The notes beneath the pieces are model-generated. The model worked only from the letters and a program-made list of their open reading frames with translations, had not been told where the DNA came from and ran no database searches. The position numbers and the translations under genes were made by a program. This document shows, piece by piece, positions 4,414-10,988 of a DNA stretch of 64,000 nucleotides. This stretch comes from Variovorax beijingensis. GTDB taxonomy: Bacteria; Pseudomonadota; Gammaproteobacteria; Burkholderiales; Burkholderiaceae_C. The DNA lies in the NCBI RefSeq assembly GCF_007828835.1, contig NZ_VIVL01000002.1:682001-746000 (forward strand), given 5' to 3'. Position 1 is the first letter of the stretch. The number at the start of each line of letters is the position of its first letter.

Positions 4414-5141
4414 CGGCGATGCTGGAGATTGGCGACCTGCACGTGTCGTATGGGCAGGTCGAGGCGGTGCGCGGCGTGTCGCTGAACCTGCAGCCGGGGC
4501 AGATCATCTCGGTGATCGGCCCCAATGGCGCGGGCAAGACCACGCTGCTGGCGGCCGCCATGGGACTGCTGCCCTGCAAGGGCACGCTGCGCTTCGAGGG
4601 CGAAGACCTGCAGGGCCTCGACGTGGAGGCGCGCGTGGAGCGCGGCCTGTGCCTGGTGCCCGAAAAGCGCGAGCTGTTCGGCGAGCTCACCGTGCTCGAC
4701 AACCTGCAGCTCGGCGCCTATGCCAAGCGGCTGCGCGGCGACGCCATGAAGAAGCGGCTGCAGTCGGTGTACGACCGCTTCCCGCGCCTCGCCGAGCGCC
4801 GTTCGCAGCGCGCCGACACGCTCTCGGGCGGCGAGCGGCAGATGCTTGCGGTGGGCCGCGCCCTGATGTCCGCACCGCGCCTGCTGATGCTCGACGAGCC
4901 CAGCCTCGGCCTCGCGCCGCTGATCGTGCGCGACATTCTTTCCATCGTGCGCAAGCTGCGCGAGGACGGCGTCTCGATCCTGCTGGTGGAGCAGAACGCG
5001 CGTGCCGCGCTCGAAAGCTCGGACCATGGCTACGTGCTGGAAACCGGCGAGATTGCGCTGTCAGGCGCATCGGGCGAACTCGCGAGCGATCCGCGGGTGC
5101 AGGCCACCTACCTCGGCGGAGGCACGCACGATGACGAGTGA
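4410..5141 (+). CDS. Branched-chain-type ABC importer ATPase (LivF-like)
   Basis: The 243-residue protein starts at the ATG overlapping the previous stop (ATGA). It has Walker [10 protein letters not shown] at residues 37-45, signature LSGGERQ, Walker [14 protein letters not shown], and the LivF hallmark [13 protein letters not shown] (in most LivF proteins VPEGR.VF..LTV). The [12 protein letters not shown] segment containing the switch region is typical. It would pair with the LivG half of the preceding fusion as the second nucleotide-binding subunit. The acyl-CoA ligase gene begins 11 bases before its stop, so translation is coupled. Confidence 0.9.
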
Positions 5142-6735
5142 GGCGCGCGCGCTGCCGCCGTCCCAACGCACGCTGCCCGCGATACTGCAGCGGCAGTCGG
5201 AACGCTTCGCCGGGCGCCCGCTGCTTCGAATGGCGGCGCGGCAATGGACGCATGGCGACGCGGCCGGGGCGGCTGCGGTGCGTGCCGGCGCGCTGGCGCA
5301 GGCCGGCGTGGCGCGCGGCGACCGCATCGCCGTGATGTGCGGCAACCGCATCGAGTTTCTCGAAACCTTTCTCGGCGCGGGCTGGCTCGGCGCGTCGGTG
5401 GTGCCGGTCAACACCGCGTCGATGGGGCCGCAGATCGAATACTTCCTCGCCAACAGCGAGGCGAAGCTGCTGGTGATCGAGGCGGGTTTTCTCGAGCGGC
5501 TGAAGACCGCCGAGCTCGGCCGAACGGCGCTGCGCGAGCTCTGGGTCGTCGGCGAGGCGGCTGCTTCATGGGTGCCGCCTGCAGGCATTCGCGTCTCGAG
5601 CTATCCCGAAGGCGGGCCAGCCATTGCGCCAGCCGCGGTGCAGCCCGGCGAGCCGCTCGCCATCCTCTACACCTCCGGTACCACCGGCCCGGCCAAGGGC
5701 GTGGTCTGCCCGCATGCGCAGTATTTCTGGTGGGGCGTGAACAGCGCCGAGGTGCTCGGCGTCGGCCGCGACGACGTGCTGTGCACCACGCTGCCGCTGT
5801 TCCATATCAATGCGCTCAACACCTTCGCGCAGGCCGCGCTGACCGGGGCCGAGGTGGTGTTCGAATCGCGCTTCTCGGCCTCGGGCTTCTGGCCGTCGAT
5901 GCGCGCCAACGGAGCGACCGTGGTCTACCTGCTGGGCGCGATGGTGCCCATCCTGCTGGCCCAGCCCGAGGGCGACGGCGAGCGCGATCACCGCGTGCGC
6001 ATCGGGCTCGGGCCGGGCGTGCCGTCGGCGGCCGGGCAGGCCTTCAGGGCGCGAACCGGCGTGCCGCTGCTCGAGGGCTATGGATCGACCGAGACCAACT
6101 TCGCGATCGCCACCGCGCCGGATTCGCCGCGCGGCGGCGTCATGGGCTGGCTGCGCCCCGGCTTCCAGGCGCGCGTGGCCGATGAAGGCGATGCGGAACT
6201 GCCGGCAGGCGAGGCCGGCGAACTGCTGCTGCGCGCGGACGAGCCTCATGCCTTTGCGAGCGGCTACTTCAACATGCCCGAGAAGACGGTCGAGGCCTGG
6301 CGCAACCTCTGGTTCCATACCGGCGACCGCGTGGTGCGGGATGCCGATGGTGCCTTTCGTTTTGTCGACCGCATCAAGGACGCCATCCGCAGGCGCGGCG
6401 AGAACATCTCGTCGTTCGAGGTCGAGCAGGTGCTGCTGAGCCACCCTGGCGTGGCCTCCTGCGCCGTGTACCCGGTGCAATCCGAACTGGCCGAGGACGA
6501 GGTGATGGCCGCGCTGGTGCCGCGCGAGGGCCAGCGCATCGACCCGGCCGAACTGGCGCGCTTCTGCGAGAGCCGCCTGCCGTACTTCGCGGTGCCGCGC
6601 TACATTGACGTGCTGCCGGACCTGCCGCGCACCGAGAACGGCAAGGTGCAGAAGTTCAAGCTGCGCGAGCGCGGCGTCAGCGAACAGACCTGGGACGGGC
6701 GGCCCGGCCTGCGTCCCCCTGCAAAGACGGCATGA
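5131..6735 (+). CDS. AMP-forming acyl-CoA synthetase (carboxylate-CoA ligase)
   Basis: The 534-residue protein belongs to the AMP-binding (ANL) superfamily. The ATP-binding P-loop [11 protein letters not shown] starts at residue 180; further motifs are GYGSTETNF, a TGD aspartate and the hinge [14 protein letters not shown], followed by the C-terminal domain ending with [11 protein letters not shown], whose lysine should be the adenylation residue. I chose the ATG at 5131, which overlaps the end of livF, over an in-frame ATG further upstream because the longer form would run through the livF C-terminus. The gene should activate the imported acid to its CoA thioester. The specific acid is not evident; propionate- or crotonobetaine-type ligases are similar. 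Confidence 0.87.
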
Positions 6736-7493
6736 GTTCCGCGCCGCCACCGCTTGCTGGCCGGGCCGCGTTCGTGACCGGCGCGGGGCAGGGCCTGGGT
6801 GCCGCCATTGTGCGCGGATTGGCCGAAGCGGGTGCGCGCGTGGTGCTGGCGGACATCGATGCCCACGGCGCTGAATCCGCAGCCGCGGGCTTGCGCGCCG
6901 CGGGTGCCGACTGCATCGCGATGGAGCTCGACGTGCGCAGCGAGGCGGCGTTCTCCCGCTGCTTCGAAGCGGCAGTGGCCCATTTCGGCGCCGTCGACGT
7001 GCTGGTCAACAACGCCGCGCGCACGCCGCTCACCTCGCCCTGGGACATCACGCCCGAAGAGTGGGACGACGTGCTGGCCGTCAACCTGCGCGGCAGCTTC
7101 TTCGGCTGCCGCATTGCCGGGCGGCACATGCGCGAGCGCGGAGCCGGCCGCATCGTCAACCTGGCGTCGTTGGCGGGCCAGCAGCCCAGCGCCGCAACCG
7201 GCGTGCACTATGCAGCCAGCAAGGCGGCGCTGCTGGCCTTGACACGCAGCTTTGCGCAGGAACTCGCACCGCATGGCGTCACGGTGAATGCACTGGCGCC
7301 GGCGGCAGTTCGCAGCCCCGCGATTGATGCACTGGACCCGGCTCGGCGGCAGGCGCTCAAGGCGCAGATTCCGCTGGCCCGCTTCGGCCGGCCCGAAGAG
7401 GTGGCGGCCGCCGTGGTCTACCTCGCGTCGCCCGCGGCAGCCTTCATGACGGGCGCCACGCTGGACCTCAACGGCGGCCGCTTCATGCGCTGA
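6732..7493 (+). CDS. SDR-family NAD(P)-dependent oxidoreductase
   Basis: This is a 253-residue classical short-chain dehydrogenase. The cofactor loop TGAGQGLG lies at residues 16-23, the NNAA motif follows in the middle, and the catalytic pair is Y160 and K164 (YAASK). ADID after the second beta strand places an aspartate where NAD(H)-preferring enzymes carry one. The start overlaps the ligase stop by four bases, so it is the last gene of the first catabolic operon. In this setting it could oxidise a 3-hydroxyacyl-CoA or a dihydrodiol; the sequence alone does not decide. Confidence 0.85.
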   Translation: MSSAPPPLAGRAAFVTGAGQGLGAAIVRGLAEAGARVVLADIDAHGAESAAAGLRAAGADCIAMELDVRSEAAFSRCFEAAVAHFGAVDVLVNNAARTPLTSPWDITPEEWDDVLAVNLRGSFFGCRIAGRHMRERGAGRIVNLASLAGQQPSAATGVHYAASKAALLALTRSFAQELAPHGVTVNALAPAAVRSPAIDALDPARRQALKAQIPLARFGRPEEVAAAVVYLASPAAAFMTGATLDLNGGRFMR

Positions 7494-7515
7494 ACAGGCG
7501 ATGCGCCGCACACGG

Positions 7516-7536
7516 TAAAATGGTTCAGAACTAAAC
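7516..7536 (+). promoter_or_regulatory. Putative -10 box and MarR-type palindrome upstream of second SDR operon
   Basis: A TAAAAT -10 candidate (7516-7521) is followed directly by GTTCAGAACTAAAC (7523-7536). That sequence matches its own reverse complement at 12 of 14 positions. It lies only 9 bases before the ATG of the SDR gene, so a bound protein would block the start of transcription. The only regulator in the downstream operon is the MarR protein, and MarR proteins commonly repress their own operons through such sites. The assignment is inferred from position. Confidence 0.5.
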
Positions 7537-7545
7537 AATTCAGGT

Positions 7546-8322
7546 ATGTACGCAAATTCCTTGAACGGCCGCCATGCCCTCGTCACCGGAGCCGCACGCG
7601 GCATCGGGGCCGAGATCGCCCGCACCCTGGCTGCCGAGGGCGCAACGCTCACGCTGCTCGGGCGCGACCTTGATGCGCTCCAGCGTGTGGCCGCGTCGCT
7701 CGCGGGCCAGGGCCACGGCGTTGCCGCGGCCGACGTGGCCGACGCGCAGGCGGTGCAATCGGCCTTCGCGCTGGCGCGCGCCGAGCGCGGGCCGCTCGCC
7801 ATCCTCGTCAACAACGCGGGCGCGGCCGAGAGCGCGCCTTTTCTCAAGACCTCGGCCGAACTCTGGCAGCGCATGCTGTCGGTGAACCTCACCGGCACCT
7901 TCCTGTGCACTCAGGCCGCGCTGCCCGACATGCTCGAAGCCGGCTGGGGCCGCATCGTCAACATCGCCAGCACCGCGGGCCAGAAGGGCTATGCCTACGT
8001 CGCGGCCTATGCGGCCGCCAAGCATGGCGTGGTCGGGCTCACGCGCTCGCTTGCGCTCGAAGTGGCGCGCAAGGGCGTCACGGTGAACGCGGTGTGCCCC
8101 GGCTACACCGACACGGACATCCTGCGCGCGAGCGTTGCCAACGTGGTGGGCAAGACCGGGCGCAGCGAAGCCGATGCGCTGGCCGAGTTCTCCAGCGTCA
8201 ATCCGCAGCGCCGCATCGTGCAGCCCGCCGAGGTGGCCGACGCGGTGCGCTGGCTCTGCGGCAGCGGCGCTGCATCCGTCACCGGGCAGTCGGTTTCGGT
8301 GTCGGGCGGAGAGGTGATGTGA
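7546..8322 (+). CDS. SDR-family oxidoreductase (3-hydroxyacyl-CoA dehydrogenase-like)
   Basis: This 258-residue classical SDR has TGAARGIG at residues 14-21, NNAG, and the catalytic Y155/K159 (YAAAK). The C-terminal CPGYTDTDI segment and the SVSGGEVM end resemble 3-hydroxyacyl-CoA or 3-oxoacyl-ACP reductases. It opens a second operon, behind its own promoter and palindrome, and its TGA shares one base with the ATG of the MarR gene. It is paralogous to the SDR just upstream, which suggests two oxidation steps on the same route. Confidence 0.85.
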
Positions 8323-8849
8323 TGCGCAACGATGCCTCGCACGCCGCGCTCAGCGATGCCGAAGAGCTCGGCCACGAAGCCCGTGCCGGCCGCGAAGACC
8401 ACGCCATGCTCAGGCTGTGGCTGCGCATGCTCGCCAGCACCACGCAGATCGAGGCCGAGATCCGGCGCCGGCTGCGCGAGCGCTTCGGCATCTCGCTGGC
8501 GCGCTTCGACTACATGGCCCAGCTCTACCGCTATGAAGATGGCCTCAAGATGCGCGTGCTGTCGCGCTACCTGATGGTGACCGGCGGCAACGTCACGGGC
8601 CTGACCGACGAGCTGGAGCGCGATGGCCTGGTGGCGCGCGCCCACAGCCCCGACGACCGCCGCTCGTGGATCGTGAGCCTCACGCCCAAGGGCCGCGCGA
8701 GCTTCGAGACCATGGCCAAGGAGCACGAGCAATGGATCCTCGAGATGTTCTCGGGCCTCGACATGAAGACCGTCAGGCAGATGCATGCCCAGCTCGGCCA
8801 GCTGCGCGTGCACGTGATGCGCAGCGAGCCTGCGGGCGAGGAGGGCTGA
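8322..8849 (+). CDS. MarR-family transcriptional regulator
   Basis: This 175-residue winged-helix protein has the MarR core: a recognition region MTGGNVTGLTDELERDGLV-like (here VTGGNV) and the wing HSPDDRRSWIVSLTPKG at about residues 105-125. MarR regulators of aromatic-acid routes usually bind the substrate or its CoA ester and leave the DNA on binding. It sits between an SDR and a thioesterase with one-base overlaps on both sides, so it is very likely cotranscribed. A GTTCAGAACTAAAC palindrome in front of the operon is its most likely operator. Confidence 0.85.
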   Translation: MRNDASHAALSDAEELGHEARAGREDHAMLRLWLRMLASTTQIEAEIRRRLRERFGISLARFDYMAQLYRYEDGLKMRVLSRYLMVTGGNVTGLTDELERDGLVARAHSPDDRRSWIVSLTPKGRASFETMAKEHEQWILEMFSGLDMKTVRQMHAQLGQLRVHVMRSEPAGEEG

Positions 8850-9307
8850 TGGCGATGAGCACAGGCGGAACCGAGGCGCCCCAGGCAGAGTTCCAGCGCG
8901 CGCGGATGATCCGCTTTTCCGATTGCGACCCGGCGGGCATCGTCTTCTATCCGCAGTACTTCGTCATGCTCAACGGCCTGGTGGAAGACTGGGTGAGCGA
9001 AGGGCTCGGCGTCGACTACCACGCGCTCATCAGCGAGCGGCGCATCGGCCTGCCGACGGTGCGGCTCGAGGCCGACTTCCGTGCCGTGAGCCGGATGGGC
9101 GATCAAGTCATGCTGGGCCTGGCGGTGGAGCGGCTGGGCTCGCGCTCCATGGCGCTCGCGCTGCGCTGCTTCGACCCCGCCAGCGGCGAGCTGCGCATGC
9201 AGCTCAGGCAGGTGCTCGTGACCACATCGCTCGAGAGCCATCGCGCCGTGGAAATTCCGCAAGACCTGCGCACGGCCATCCTGCGTGGCGCGCCCTCGCT
9301 CGCCTGA
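8849..9307 (+). CDS. Acyl-CoA thioesterase, 4-hydroxybenzoyl-CoA type hot-dog fold
   Basis: The 152-residue protein carries the signature FSDCDPAGIVFYPQYF near its start; D27 corresponds to the catalytic aspartate of Pseudomonas-type 4-hydroxybenzoyl-CoA thioesterase. The start overlaps the marR stop (TGATG). A thioesterase together with a CoA ligase and a ring dioxygenase subunit in one cluster suggests a route in which a ring is modified as its CoA ester and then freed. Short or medium acyl-CoA substrates are also possible for this family. The gene ends 6 bases from the end of a convergent gene. Confidence 0.83.
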   Translation: MAMSTGGTEAPQAEFQRARMIRFSDCDPAGIVFYPQYFVMLNGLVEDWVSEGLGVDYHALISERRIGLPTVRLEADFRAVSRMGDQVMLGLAVERLGSRSMALALRCFDPASGELRMQLRQVLVTTSLESHRAVEIPQDLRTAILRGAPSLA

Positions 9308-9313
9308 AGCGCA

Positions 9314-9706
9314 TCAGGGCGGCGGCTCGTCGCCGGGCGCGCGCGCCGCGCGCTGCTTGAGCCAGCCGCTGAGTTCCCTCTTTCCCTTGGCATTGGCGTG
9401 CCGCCAAGCTTCGCGCGCGACCGCGATGAAGCGCTCTTCGGCCGCATCGGGCACTTCGGAGGGGCGGTCTTCCTTGTCGAGCCAGCCCGCCTCCACCTCG
9501 CAATGCTGCTCGATCTGCCGTGCCAGGTTGTCGCCGATGGGGCGGGAGCTCTTGATCTGGCTCCACATGCTGGGCGAGATTTCGATCTTCCTGGCAAAGG
9601 CCTGGTCCAGTCCCTTGGCAGGCAGGCCGGCGGCAATGGCCCCTTCGAGAAAGCGGCGGTGCAGCGCAAGAACATTGCGGCGGCGCGCGACGGTGATATT
9701 GGGCAC
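9314..9706 (-). CDS. Small helix-turn-helix regulator
   Basis: I read a 130-residue protein from a GTG at 9706. The central segment (ARKIEISPSMWSQIKSSRP) looks like a Cro/C1-type helix-turn-helix. The rest is helical and charged, ending in a proline tail. Longer forms begin at an ATG at 9790 or a GTG at 9808, but those extra codons include rare codons and a Cys-Cys-Cys run and overlap a shared promoter/operator, so I prefer the short form. It is divergent from a 36-codon ORF, and the operator lies inside that ORF's promoter. I do not recognise the family by name; the DNA-binding role is inferred. Confidence 0.6.
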   Translation of the reverse strand: MPNITVARRRNVLALHRRFLEGAIAAGLPAKGLDQAFARKIEISPSMWSQIKSSRPIGDNLARQIEQHCEVEAGWLDKEDRPSEVPDAAEERFIAVAREAWRHANAKGKRELSGWLKQRAARAPGDEPPP

Positions 9707-9739
9707 TGTTTGAAAACAACAACAACGAGACAACGAAAG

Positions 9740-9781
9740 ATTGTCCCGGTTGTTGACGCTGCCGTAAACACTATTTACAGT
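9740..9781. promoter_or_regulatory. Overlapping divergent promoters with palindromic operator
   Basis: On the plus strand TTGACG (9753-9758), a 17-base spacer and TACAGT (9776-9781) form a good sigma-70 promoter toward the small ORF at 9836. On the minus strand TTTACG (9768-9763), 17 bases and GACAAT (9745-9740) point to the HTH gene. The palindrome GTAAA-cacta-TTTAC (9764-9778) lies between the plus-strand -35 and -10 and covers the minus-strand -35. This is a classic arrangement for a repressor that controls both directions. Confidence 0.6.
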
Positions 9782-9835
9782 TCGGCTCATTCGCGGTTCC
9801 GGCCGCACAAAGAAAAAACTTCACCAGGAATCATC

Positions 9836-9946
9836 GTGACCTCCGCCGCACTGAACCTCACCAGCATTCGACCCGCTTCGGGCCGATCGCTCGTGCGCGT
9901 TGCAGCGCTCAAAGGTCAGATGCCCCCGGGCGGAGGTTGCGCTTAA
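9836..9946 (+). CDS. 36-residue peptide of unknown function
   Basis: A GTG-started ORF of 36 codons is preceded by AGGA six bases upstream, by a strong sigma-70-like promoter 55-80 bases upstream, and is followed 28 bases later by an intrinsic terminator, so it looks like a one-gene transcript. The product has no membrane span or signal peptide. It reads as a Ser/Ala/Arg-rich start, a basic middle (SLVRVAALKG) and a Gly/Pro end with a penultimate cysteine (PPGGGCA). It is divergent from a small HTH regulator. I recognise no family; a signalling or leader peptide is possible but unproven. Confidence 0.5.
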   Translation: MTSAALNLTSIRPASGRSLVRVAALKGQMPPGGGCA

Positions 9947-9974
9947 AGCGCACTTCCCAAGCTCTCTTCACCAG

Positions 9975-10007
9975 AGGCCCGGACACCGCAAGGTTCCGGG
10001 CCTTTTT
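9975..10007 (+). terminator. Rho-independent terminator after the 36-aa ORF
   Basis: The stem AGGCCCGGA (9975-9983) pairs with TCCGGGCCT (9995-10003), extended inside by ACC/GGT around a GCAA loop, and is followed by a run of T. Confidence 0.85.
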
Positions 10008-10116
10008 GTTTTGCCATTTCGGGTGTGCCTTCGCCACACCGCCAGTTTCCAGCCGCGTGGACGGCCTGGCGGGATGTGCAGGAAAGTGGACCGTTCCTGT
10101 GCGGCGACGTCGTACG

Positions 10117-10140
10117 GGGCAGCACCCCAGGGTGCTGCCC
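10117..10140 (+). repeat. Perfect 11-bp inverted repeat in the leader of a small gene
   Basis: GGGCAGCACCC (10117-10127), two bases, then GGGTGCTGCCC (10130-10140) would fold to a very stable hairpin. No T-run follows, so it is not a standard terminator. It lies about 60 bases before the small gene at 10202 and may act in its 5' leader or be a processing site. Confidence 0.6.
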
Positions 10141-10201
10141 GTCGCGCGAGGACACAACCGAAATGGAGAAAAAACCCGCGCCATCAACCCAAGGAGCCCC
10201 C

Positions 10202-10408
10202 ATGCGCAAGCGCAGCAACACCCCCATCCGCATGATCGCAGTCCGTCCGGCGCAGCCGCGCCGCCGCATGGCGTGGGCGCTTGCGCAGCGCCTGGGCATC
10301 GGCATGGCGGCCGGGCGGGGCGCACCGGCGCCTTCGCTTGCGCCGACGGACCGCAGCCTTGAATATCCCGACCTCGACCAGCGCGTGCGCGAGGTCGGCG
10401 AGTGGTAG
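10202..10408 (+). CDS. Small basic hypothetical protein
   Basis: The 68-residue protein starts at an ATG with GGAG five bases before it. The first half is very basic (MRKRSNTPIRMIAVRPAQPRRR), the middle is Ala/Gly-rich and the end is acidic (YPDLDQRVREVGEW). An in-frame ATG at 10025 would extend it, but that extension runs through the strong hairpin at 10117-10140 and lacks an obvious ribosome binding site. It is followed 42 bases later by another unknown gene in the same direction, which probably shares its transcript. I recognise no family. Confidence 0.5.
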   Translation: MRKRSNTPIRMIAVRPAQPRRRMAWALAQRLGIGMAAGRGAPAPSLAPTDRSLEYPDLDQRVREVGEW

Positions 10409-10450
10409 TGCTGCAAGGCGTCGACATGAACATGAAGGAGTGAGTGCCGC

Positions 10451-10858
10451 ATGGACAACAAGCAAGCCATCATCGAAAGCCTTGCGCGGGCATTGGAAAG
10501 CTGGGTGCGCCATGCCGGTGCCGCGCAGCTCTGGCAGGTGCAGCAGCGAGGCGGCCTGGGGGCGTCCATCGCGGTGGACGAGGACATCGTGCACGCCCGC
10601 ATCGAACTCGGCGGCCCGCGCAATCCGCTGTCGGAACTGGGCCGCACCGATGGGCGCCTGCCCGTGACGGAAGCTTTTCTAGGCAACGGCGCCGCAGCAT
10701 GGGGCGCGCCGCCCCCGCATGGAGACCCGACGCGCGAGGCCTGGTTCTTGTCGAACGAACTGGCACAGGAGCATGCGCGCCAATACCTGCTTGCAGAGTT
10801 CAGGGAAAAGCGGGAAGTGCTGTCGCGGTTTGTGGAGGCCTGGCTGGACAGCCAATAA
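10451..10858 (+). CDS. Hypothetical protein (135 aa)
   Basis: The 135-residue soluble protein has AAGGAG ten bases before its ATG. The N-terminal half is an amphipathic helix followed by predicted strands (IAVDEDIVHARIELGG), and the C-terminal half is helical (ELAQEHARQYLLAEFREKR, about residues 100-120). No signal peptide or membrane segment is seen. It follows the small basic protein gene and is closed by a terminator. I do not recognise the family. Confidence 0.6.
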   Translation: MDNKQAIIESLARALESWVRHAGAAQLWQVQQRGGLGASIAVDEDIVHARIELGGPRNPLSELGRTDGRLPVTEAFLGNGAAAWGAPPPHGDPTREAWFLSNELAQEHARQYLLAEFREKREVLSRFVEAWLDSQ

Positions 10859-10860
10859 AA

Positions 10861-10893
10861 AAGCCTGCTACCGATGAAGTAGCAGGCTTTTCA
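10861..10893. terminator. Bidirectional intrinsic terminator
   Basis: AAGCCTGCTAC (10861-10871) pairs with GTAGCAGGCTT (10879-10889). T-rich tails occur on both strands (TTTT to the right; six A just to the left), so it can end both the 10451 gene and the leftward tRNA transcript. Confidence 0.85.
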
Positions 10894-10912
10894 GCGTTTC
10901 CGCGATGTTGGT

Positions 10913-10988
10913 TGGTGGGCCCTGAGTGACTCGAACACTCGACCTACGGATTAAGAGTCCGCTGCTCTACCAACTGAGCTAAGAGCCC
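10913..10988 (-). tRNA. tRNA-Lys (anticodon CTT)
   Basis: The 76-base cloverleaf is complete. The acceptor is GGGCTCT/AGGGCCC with one U-G pair, the D arm GCTC/GAGC, the anticodon loop CTCTTAA with anticodon CTT, and the T loop TTCGAGT. The encoded 3' CCA lies at 10913-10915. It reads AAG lysine codons. Confidence 0.95.

Follow-up and report, generated by a model that had tools for sequence, protein, structure and literature searches.

Within the 64,000-nucleotide stretch of Variovorax beijingensis DNA analysed here (the window), a gene for an HTH protein was found to lie divergent to a short ORF, and the following features were recognized at and downstream of this pair:

9314-9706, minus strand: HTH repressor gene, 130 aa with a GTG start, lambda-repressor-like and of the A-type (start conserved in a 28-row alignment).
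9740-9768, minus strand: putative promoter of the HTH gene, TTTACG-17-GACAAT (consensus resemblance only).
9753-9781, plus strand: promoter of the leader unit, TTGACG-17-TACAGT (consensus scan and sequence inspection).
9764-9778, no strand: putative operator GTAAACACTATTTAC, a palindrome between the leader -35 and -10.
9836-9946, plus strand: leader ORF of 36 codons, a short form of a leader family of 29-92 codons (alignment, lengths and frame conservation).
9926-9931, plus strand: region 1, CCGGGC in the Pro-Gly codons, which can pair with GCCCGG at 9977-9982 as a putative antiterminator stem (folds of the window and relatives).
9932-9957, plus strand: hairpin H2, whose loop is the TAA stop codon at 9944-9946 (window fold; covarying pairs in relatives).
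9964-9976, plus strand: hairpin H3 (CUCU...AGAG), small and ahead of the terminator (folds).
9976-10012, plus strand: bulged intrinsic terminator, a probable attenuator (fold; pairs kept across 37 leaders, the core being a search anchor).
10014-10166, plus strand: RNA150, a new structured RNA of about 150 nt with the closing stem CCATTTCGG...CCGAAATGG (covariance model R1, 109 bits).
10202-10408, plus strand: small 68-aa ORF that is conserved as part of the array unit (of 16 Variovorax stretches fetched, 11 contain a full-length match).
10451-10858, plus strand: ORF of 135 aa, a conserved downstream neighbour whose membership of the unit is uncertain (matches in 8 of the 16 fetched Variovorax stretches).

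The original prediction, made from the letters of the window, described an HTH regulator and a divergent lone 36-codon ORF with an operator between the -35 and -10 of the latter. All of the elements it named are present, but the unit runs on beyond 10007, the last position of the piece it described. Upstream on the plus strand (5002-9307) lie an acyl-CoA ligase-like ORF, two SDR-like ORFs, a MarR regulator and a 4HBT thioesterase, the family scan within this cluster having covered the MarR and 4HBT ORFs.

The divergent HTH gene is there as described, but its start is most likely the conserved GTG at 9706 and not 9808. The protein was matched by transcriptional repressors of the PHROG collection at 1.7e-7, while Pfam and NCBIfam returned no match for it. 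Its AlphaFold model is all-helical (mean pLDDT 82.9) and the nearest fold in the PDB is the Salmonella phage repressor Rep (Rep-Ant complex, PDB 5d50; 24% identity, E 2.9e-3), with lambda cI and restriction-controller proteins lower in the structural match list; no match in this PDB search reached E 0.001. We infer that the HTH protein is a phage-type (lambda-type) repressor, which would bind the predicted operator and hold the unit off. It shares the predicted HTH fold with phage Rep; unlike Rep, it would here be used for a chromosomal gene set, and among its neighbours no antirepressor gene was noticed.

The -35 (9753-9758) and -10 (9776-9781) of the leader promoter are separated by 17 nt, and this was the sole promoter-like site in the consensus-scan list for 9300-10900 (shuffle mean 0.2). 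The opposing promoter proposed for the HTH gene is also recognizable, with TTTACG at 9768-9763 and GACAAT at 9745-9740 on the minus strand, and its -35 overlaps the palindrome. A terminator-like site on the minus strand (9748-9726) was listed by the simple terminator scan inside this promoter region. The pattern GTAAA-N5-TTTAC has a single match in the 64 kb and none in 100 shuffles, so the palindrome that had been placed between the -35 and -10 is unique in the window. From 148 HTH relatives found, 80 named loci were examined; all 80 have a palindrome resembling the operator at 32-90 nt from the start of the HTH gene, and in 73 the operator is preceded by TTGAC at a distance of at most 14 nt. 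Taken as sequence, the operator in the leader promoter and the divergent HTH gene support the proposal that the peptide is repressor-controlled.

The leader promoter is missing in seven of the 80 loci. Among them are L054, where the leader has been lost, and L099, L105, L107 and L115, which retain an HTH relative and the operator and have a different gene where the leader would be; we take this gene, by eye, to be pyrrolidone-carboxylate peptidase-like. The B-type loci (G000:C22, also numbered L141, together with L142, L143 and L163) have another operator core (GTAAACCCAGTTTAC and variants) and their own paralogous HTH protein, suggesting that A-type and B-type represent two separate repressor-operator specificities within one genome.

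The leader ORF starts with GTG, has AGGAA upstream as ribosome binding site and, as described, encodes a peptide ending in PPGGGCA. Twenty-eight related loci were counted in the genus Variovorax, after L002 (antisense) and L004, L005, L028, L031 and L034 (matches without the motif) had been left out, and the divergent HTH gene occupies the same place in every one of them, which bears out the co-conservation of peptide and HTH protein that had been proposed as a check. The peptide is 64-69 aa long in 25 of these loci and 35-36 aa in three (the window, L006 and L007), where the middle segment is absent. In other Burkholderiales (Acidovorax, Aquabacterium, Albitalea, Caenimonas, Ramlibacter, Rubrivivax and others), the only parts usually kept are an R-P-x-x-G close to the N-terminus and a P-G-x-G close to the C-terminus.

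Based on 16 close Variovorax members, dN/dS was 0.34 in the N-terminal part, 0.79 in the middle and 0 in the C-terminal part, the bases of which are constrained by RNA structure as well. The value for the whole ORF (0.59) is only modestly lower than those of the other frames (0.78 and 1.17), and no third-position excess of changes was seen in the middle (954, 602 and 672 by codon position). These dN/dS values and codon-position counts indicate a leader whose frame is conserved and whose peptide middle is hardly constrained and nearly neutral. In 56 of 57 leaders, the ORF stays in frame across the CCGG motif and its stop precedes the terminator by 28-44 nt, which is the sequence arrangement of a leader attenuator; the 57 are the 80 named loci minus 23 without operator or terminator by pattern, some of which have one by eye. 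A chance ORF is rejected because of this fixed stop and kept frame. Since CCGG and GGCCC...GGGCC served as anchors for picking leaders, the invariance of those letters is no evidence, and the same applies to the proline codon, which is always CCG.

The original prediction considered a lone product (signal peptide, antitoxin, bacteriocin-like leader or small effector) and drew attention to the penultimate cysteine. A secreted or effector role of this kind now appears very improbable. A small ORF with a ribosome binding site and a repressor would suit it, as would the cysteine near the end of many Variovorax forms; however, relatives have Ser, Arg or Ala in place of that residue, the C-terminal codons overlap a covarying RNA hairpin, tRNA arrays lie downstream in relatives, and no export, modification or immunity protein was found among the neighbouring ORFs scanned. 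The lone-peptide readings give way to an ORF that forms the 5' leader of a longer unit with RNA150, a tRNA array and an HNH nuclease.

A terminator does follow the ORF, as had been stated. It is visible by folding, with a stem spanning 9976-10002, and was not listed by the simple terminator scan, probably owing to the bulge in the stem. For comparative folding, 37 leaders were retained from the 57 after removal of 20 at >93% identity, and the H2 stem covaries among them. In the nascent RNA, with the 3' arm of the terminator absent, the 5' arm is fully paired upstream in 35 of the 37 leaders versus 944 of 3700 shuffles, and in 32 of the 37 all five region-1 bases are its partner. Pairing of region 1 with the terminator arm also occurs in the window fold and in eight of ten trans loci folded; the other two fold otherwise, and four of 14 trans loci escaped the terminator pattern. 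The core of this 1:3 stem is invariant and anchored, and its two outer pairs are changed on both sides in two sequences each and broken in 15 and 18 of the 37. For the whole structure, ten pairs are changed on both sides, a number that 41 of 500 shuffles and two slid versions also reach, although all 500 shuffles are exceeded in the count of doubly changed cells and in the covariation score.

In full-length folds that include the 3' arm, the terminator is the minimum-energy structure in all 37 leaders, so that antitermination would have to depend on kinetics, a ribosome or a factor. The stop codon in H2 and the predicted mutually exclusive pairing fit attenuation by leader translation, and the leader is probably a translation-attenuated switch ahead of RNA150 and the tRNAs. 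Attenuators of the trp type consist of a short ORF with its stop codon in a hairpin and a terminator arm with mutually exclusive pairing. The present leader resembles them in its short ORF, in the stop codon within a hairpin and in the predicted alternative pairing of the terminator arm; unlike the trp type, it has no regulatory codon run, none suited to sensing one tRNA being found in the ORF, and its target is an RNA operon.

RNA150 has 30 predicted pairs, eight of which show changes on both sides among 27 aligned sequences (55 minus 27 near-duplicates and L051). On the sense strand of its own genome it occurs at the window locus and in the array on contig C22 only, two further matches being the antisense copies of these. 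No Rfam family matched RNA150, whether the window was searched at gathering scores, 9300-10900 at E up to 1 or ten loci at E up to 0.1. A ctRNA_p42d match (9973-10014) is below the gathering score and covers the terminator, and YrlA matches in L104 and L095, likewise below the gathering score, are positioned on array tRNA genes. A retron RNA was also considered, given the complementary ends of RNA150, yet no reverse transcriptase was noticed among the ORFs looked at.

Only 11 nt separate the terminator stem from RNA150 in the window, leaving no room for a second promoter there. This spacing bears on another reading, in which the transcript ending at the terminator acts by itself as a regulatory or dual-function small RNA, the tRNA arrays being transcribed from separate promoters. 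The highly structured and covarying 3' end of the transcript would agree with such an RNA, and in several other genera the terminator and RNA150 are about 150-250 nt apart, room enough for a promoter. The spacing is, however, just about 10-45 nt in the window and the compared A-type Variovorax loci, and the leader is found ahead of arrays and also of an RNA ligase gene, which fits a cis-acting device. A stand-alone RNA is on balance unlikely, and the leader is treated below as part of the downstream unit.

Further elements were observed around RNA150. The 68-aa ORF directly precedes tRNA-His in seven of the 11 matching Variovorax stretches and could be assigned to no family; the 135-aa ORF had no significant family either, and its match is about 8 kb distant in one of the eight stretches. 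In L053, L055, L061, L065, L066, L069 and L121, a third conserved segment (approximately GGCGGAAA-CCGGCCGCAA-GATTGGGCGGCGCCGGAAC-CGTAACCGG), perhaps another structured RNA, follows RNA150; it was not seen in the window copy. A tRNA-Gly gene stands immediately before RNA150 in L118, L122, L141 and L142, its 3' end overlapping the first bases of RNA150, and a few bases away in L095. A loose pattern picked up a boxA-like motif in 24 of the 80 named loci, at a distance of 150-900 nt from the start of the HTH gene; boxA (GCTCTTTAACA) we take to be the rrn antitermination signal, and the motif is read in that sense.

In relatives, RNA150 is followed by tRNA genes, 8 to 23 of them in L131, L140-L143, L159 and L161, and most reduced A-type loci carry one to five tRNAs on the leader strand. 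Within 1.5 kb, at least one tRNA lies on the leader strand in 58 of the 80 HTH loci and on the other strand in one, and in 22 none was found over the distance examined (up to 1.5 kb). Of 25 stretches fetched, 16 have an HNH gene at the far end, the one scanned being HNH_5. RNA150 is not followed by any tRNA at L132, at L133 and L144 (both relatives of the window copy with short leaders) or in the window itself; the window has a lone tRNA-Lys on the opposite strand (10913-10988). The window copy lacks the dense tRNA genes of a long array and is a relative, not a member, of that class: it is a reduced copy in which the leader, RNA150 and the small ORF are left and the tRNAs and the HNH gene are absent.

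A complete second locus is present in the same genome. Contig C22 bears a paralogous HTH gene (47% identity), a leader, RNA150 and 21 tRNAs, the dense extra tRNA genes that define a long array. These 21 are among a total of 63 tRNAs in the genome and are on average 70% identical to housekeeping tRNAs with matching anticodons, a comparison possible for 19 of the 21. CCA is encoded by all 21 and by all 42 others.

The regulon was surveyed with the exact operator GTAAASACTMTTTAC, which gave 58 sites in 27 of 61 Variovorax genomes, the reversed-pattern control giving none. Classed by nearby matches, the 58 comprise 27 HTH loci, 12 further leader/tRNA arrays, 17 hrpA/AAA-M41 sites and two leader/RNA ligase sites, with none elsewhere. 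The HTH-locus sites number one per genome and 25 of them have the leader, while no HTH match was found within 700 nt of the 12 leader/array sites. The 17 hrpA sites sit between hrpA and the gene for an AAA/M41-type protein; at L206 (3533-5719) this partner is a 728-aa ORF in which an AAA domain precedes one resembling peptidase M41. The L206 HrpA and the L218 and L221 ligases pass NCBIfam cut-offs, the others being identified by tblastn, and the L218 ligase matches a Naegleria RNA ligase structure. In the genome of the window, the second exact operator is the hrpA promoter (C11:179299). Among the 27 genomes that have an HTH site, 17 also have the hrpA site, versus none of the 34 without an exact site (Fisher 1.6e-8, which is overstated since the genomes are related and the 34 were scored by operator site and not by hrpA presence). 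The operator is thus shared with RNA-repair and translation genes elsewhere in the genome, as in a TrcR-like regulon. In E. coli, stalled ribosomes are rescued by HrpA (PMC13159725).

These site classes also bear on two other explanations of the peptide. A toxin-antitoxin pair of HTH protein and peptide, suggested by the small ORF beside a divergent HTH gene, is hardly credible: the two genes are divergent and do not form one operon, so that the co-transcription typical of type II pairs is lacking, the 12 array sites have a leader and no adjacent HTH match, and PADLOC had no match for the HTH protein. A defence system in general was also rejected, as PADLOC matched only HNH-domain and AAA proteins and none of HrpA, the ligase or the window ORFs.

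The other explanation is that the leader peptide serves as an antirepressor or autoinducer which binds the HTH protein and lifts repression, in the manner of phage antirepressors. The conservation of the N-terminal part as protein (dN/dS 0.34) would favour this, as would the fact that the structure closest to the HTH protein is that of a phage repressor in complex with its antirepressor, and the presence of the leader at arrays without their own HTH gene. Against it stand the nearly neutral middle and the variable length (29-92 aa) of the peptide, the little that other genera usually share past the two short motifs, the absence of any leader at the 17 hrpA sites and its loss from two of the 27 genomes that keep the HTH gene and the operator. 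An antirepressor is quite unlikely on this evidence, and a leader that is read by the ribosome remains the preferred reading.

The pattern which the original prediction had set against itself, an operator persisting after loss of the peptide, was seen only in part, namely in those two genomes and at L054, where the peptide and the -10 are missing. L210, L212 and L054 retain the HTH gene and the operator, while the leader, -35 and -10 are gone. Since the hrpA operator site is retained in G042 and G004, the repressor may have been kept for hrpA in leader-less genomes.

Outside Variovorax and its relatives, the system is scattered and rare as judged by sequence searches. The peptide profile matched 10 of 299 family genomes, including four weak cases (G092, G252, G277 and G326; E 0.0016-0.006), and R1 with strict filters matched five of 300 order genomes. 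Besides the genome of the window, three of these five have the HTH gene and tRNAs nearby, and nothing was recognized at L158, where the match is at a contig end. The HTH profile at E 1e-10 found only the window's own genome among 369 class genomes.

The closest comparison is the trn operon of Anabaena sp. PCC 7120, a long supernumerary tRNA array under the dedicated repressor TrcR (PMC10272220). According to that paper, TrcR is a ribbon-helix-helix protein restricted to cyanobacteria and two cyanophages, its sites overlap -10 boxes or are close to them, its regulon includes HNH endonuclease genes and further genes of translation or RNA repair (rtcB, rsgA and rimK) and is induced on translation block, and its level drops when translation is blocked (PMC10272220). 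In the same paper, the words operator, HTH, terminator and proteobacteria are absent and peptide appears once.

Measured against this system, the Burkholderiales unit has the long extra tRNA array, dedicated repressor, HNH nuclease and translation/RNA-repair targets in common with trn/TrcR. Unlike TrcR, its repressor is a lambda-type HTH protein with an all-helical model and another operator, and lacks the ribbon-helix-helix fold; unlike trn/TrcR as described there, the unit adds a translated leader with a terminator, RNA150 and the hrpA, AAA-M41 and RNA ligase targets. By sequence, the unit would resemble the TrcR-controlled array in function, and it differs from that array in its repressor family, operator, leader/terminator, RNA150 and targets.

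So-called L-arrays are reportedly dense, with about one tRNA per amino acid in addition to the housekeeping set, as Santamaria-Gomez in 2021 and Tran in 2015 are said to have described. Dense tRNA genes beyond the housekeeping set are likewise found at C22 and the relatives' loci, and the literature searched describes no control region of leader peptide and attenuator for L-arrays. No description of the leader/RNA150/tRNA-array unit was found either, in a search made without preprints and most subscription journals.

Taken together, the 36-codon ORF is most probably, with a probability of about 0.7, the translated leader of an inducible tRNA-array operon under a phage-type repressor. There is good support for the gene content and regulon of the leader/tRNA-array system; attenuation and the stress that induces it are what we infer. 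In the proposed mechanism, the HTH protein would bind the operator and keep the unit off. When translation fails, the repressor would be lost or inactivated and the unit transcribed, a translation block being the presumed trigger by analogy with TrcR. A ribosome finishing the leader would cover the last codons and allow the terminator to form, and with the ribosome stalled or missing, free CCGGG would hold CCCGG and the polymerase would continue through RNA150 to the spare tRNAs. This repressor would also control hrpA/AAA-M41 and, in some strains, the RNA ligase, as a regulon for translation failure and RNA repair. It is reasonably likely that Burkholderiales possess an undescribed emergency regulon for failing translation, which would unite the phage-type repressor and the leader gating read-through with the tRNA arrays, RNA150, the HNH nuclease, the ribosome-rescue helicase HrpA with AAA-M41 and the RNA ligase.

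Supernumerary tRNA arrays are known in many bacteria, and a known control mechanism was found for one only, TrcR in Anabaena. In the present case, the genome sequence shows a repressor together with its likely operator and targets and a candidate for a leader that reads translation directly, and RNA150 adds a new structured RNA. If the proposal is true, a single operator at spare tRNAs, RNA ligase and HrpA would tie together tRNA supply, RNA repair and ribosome rescue, and the question of whether bacteria hold a spare set of tRNAs for the failure of their own tRNAs or ribosomes becomes testable.
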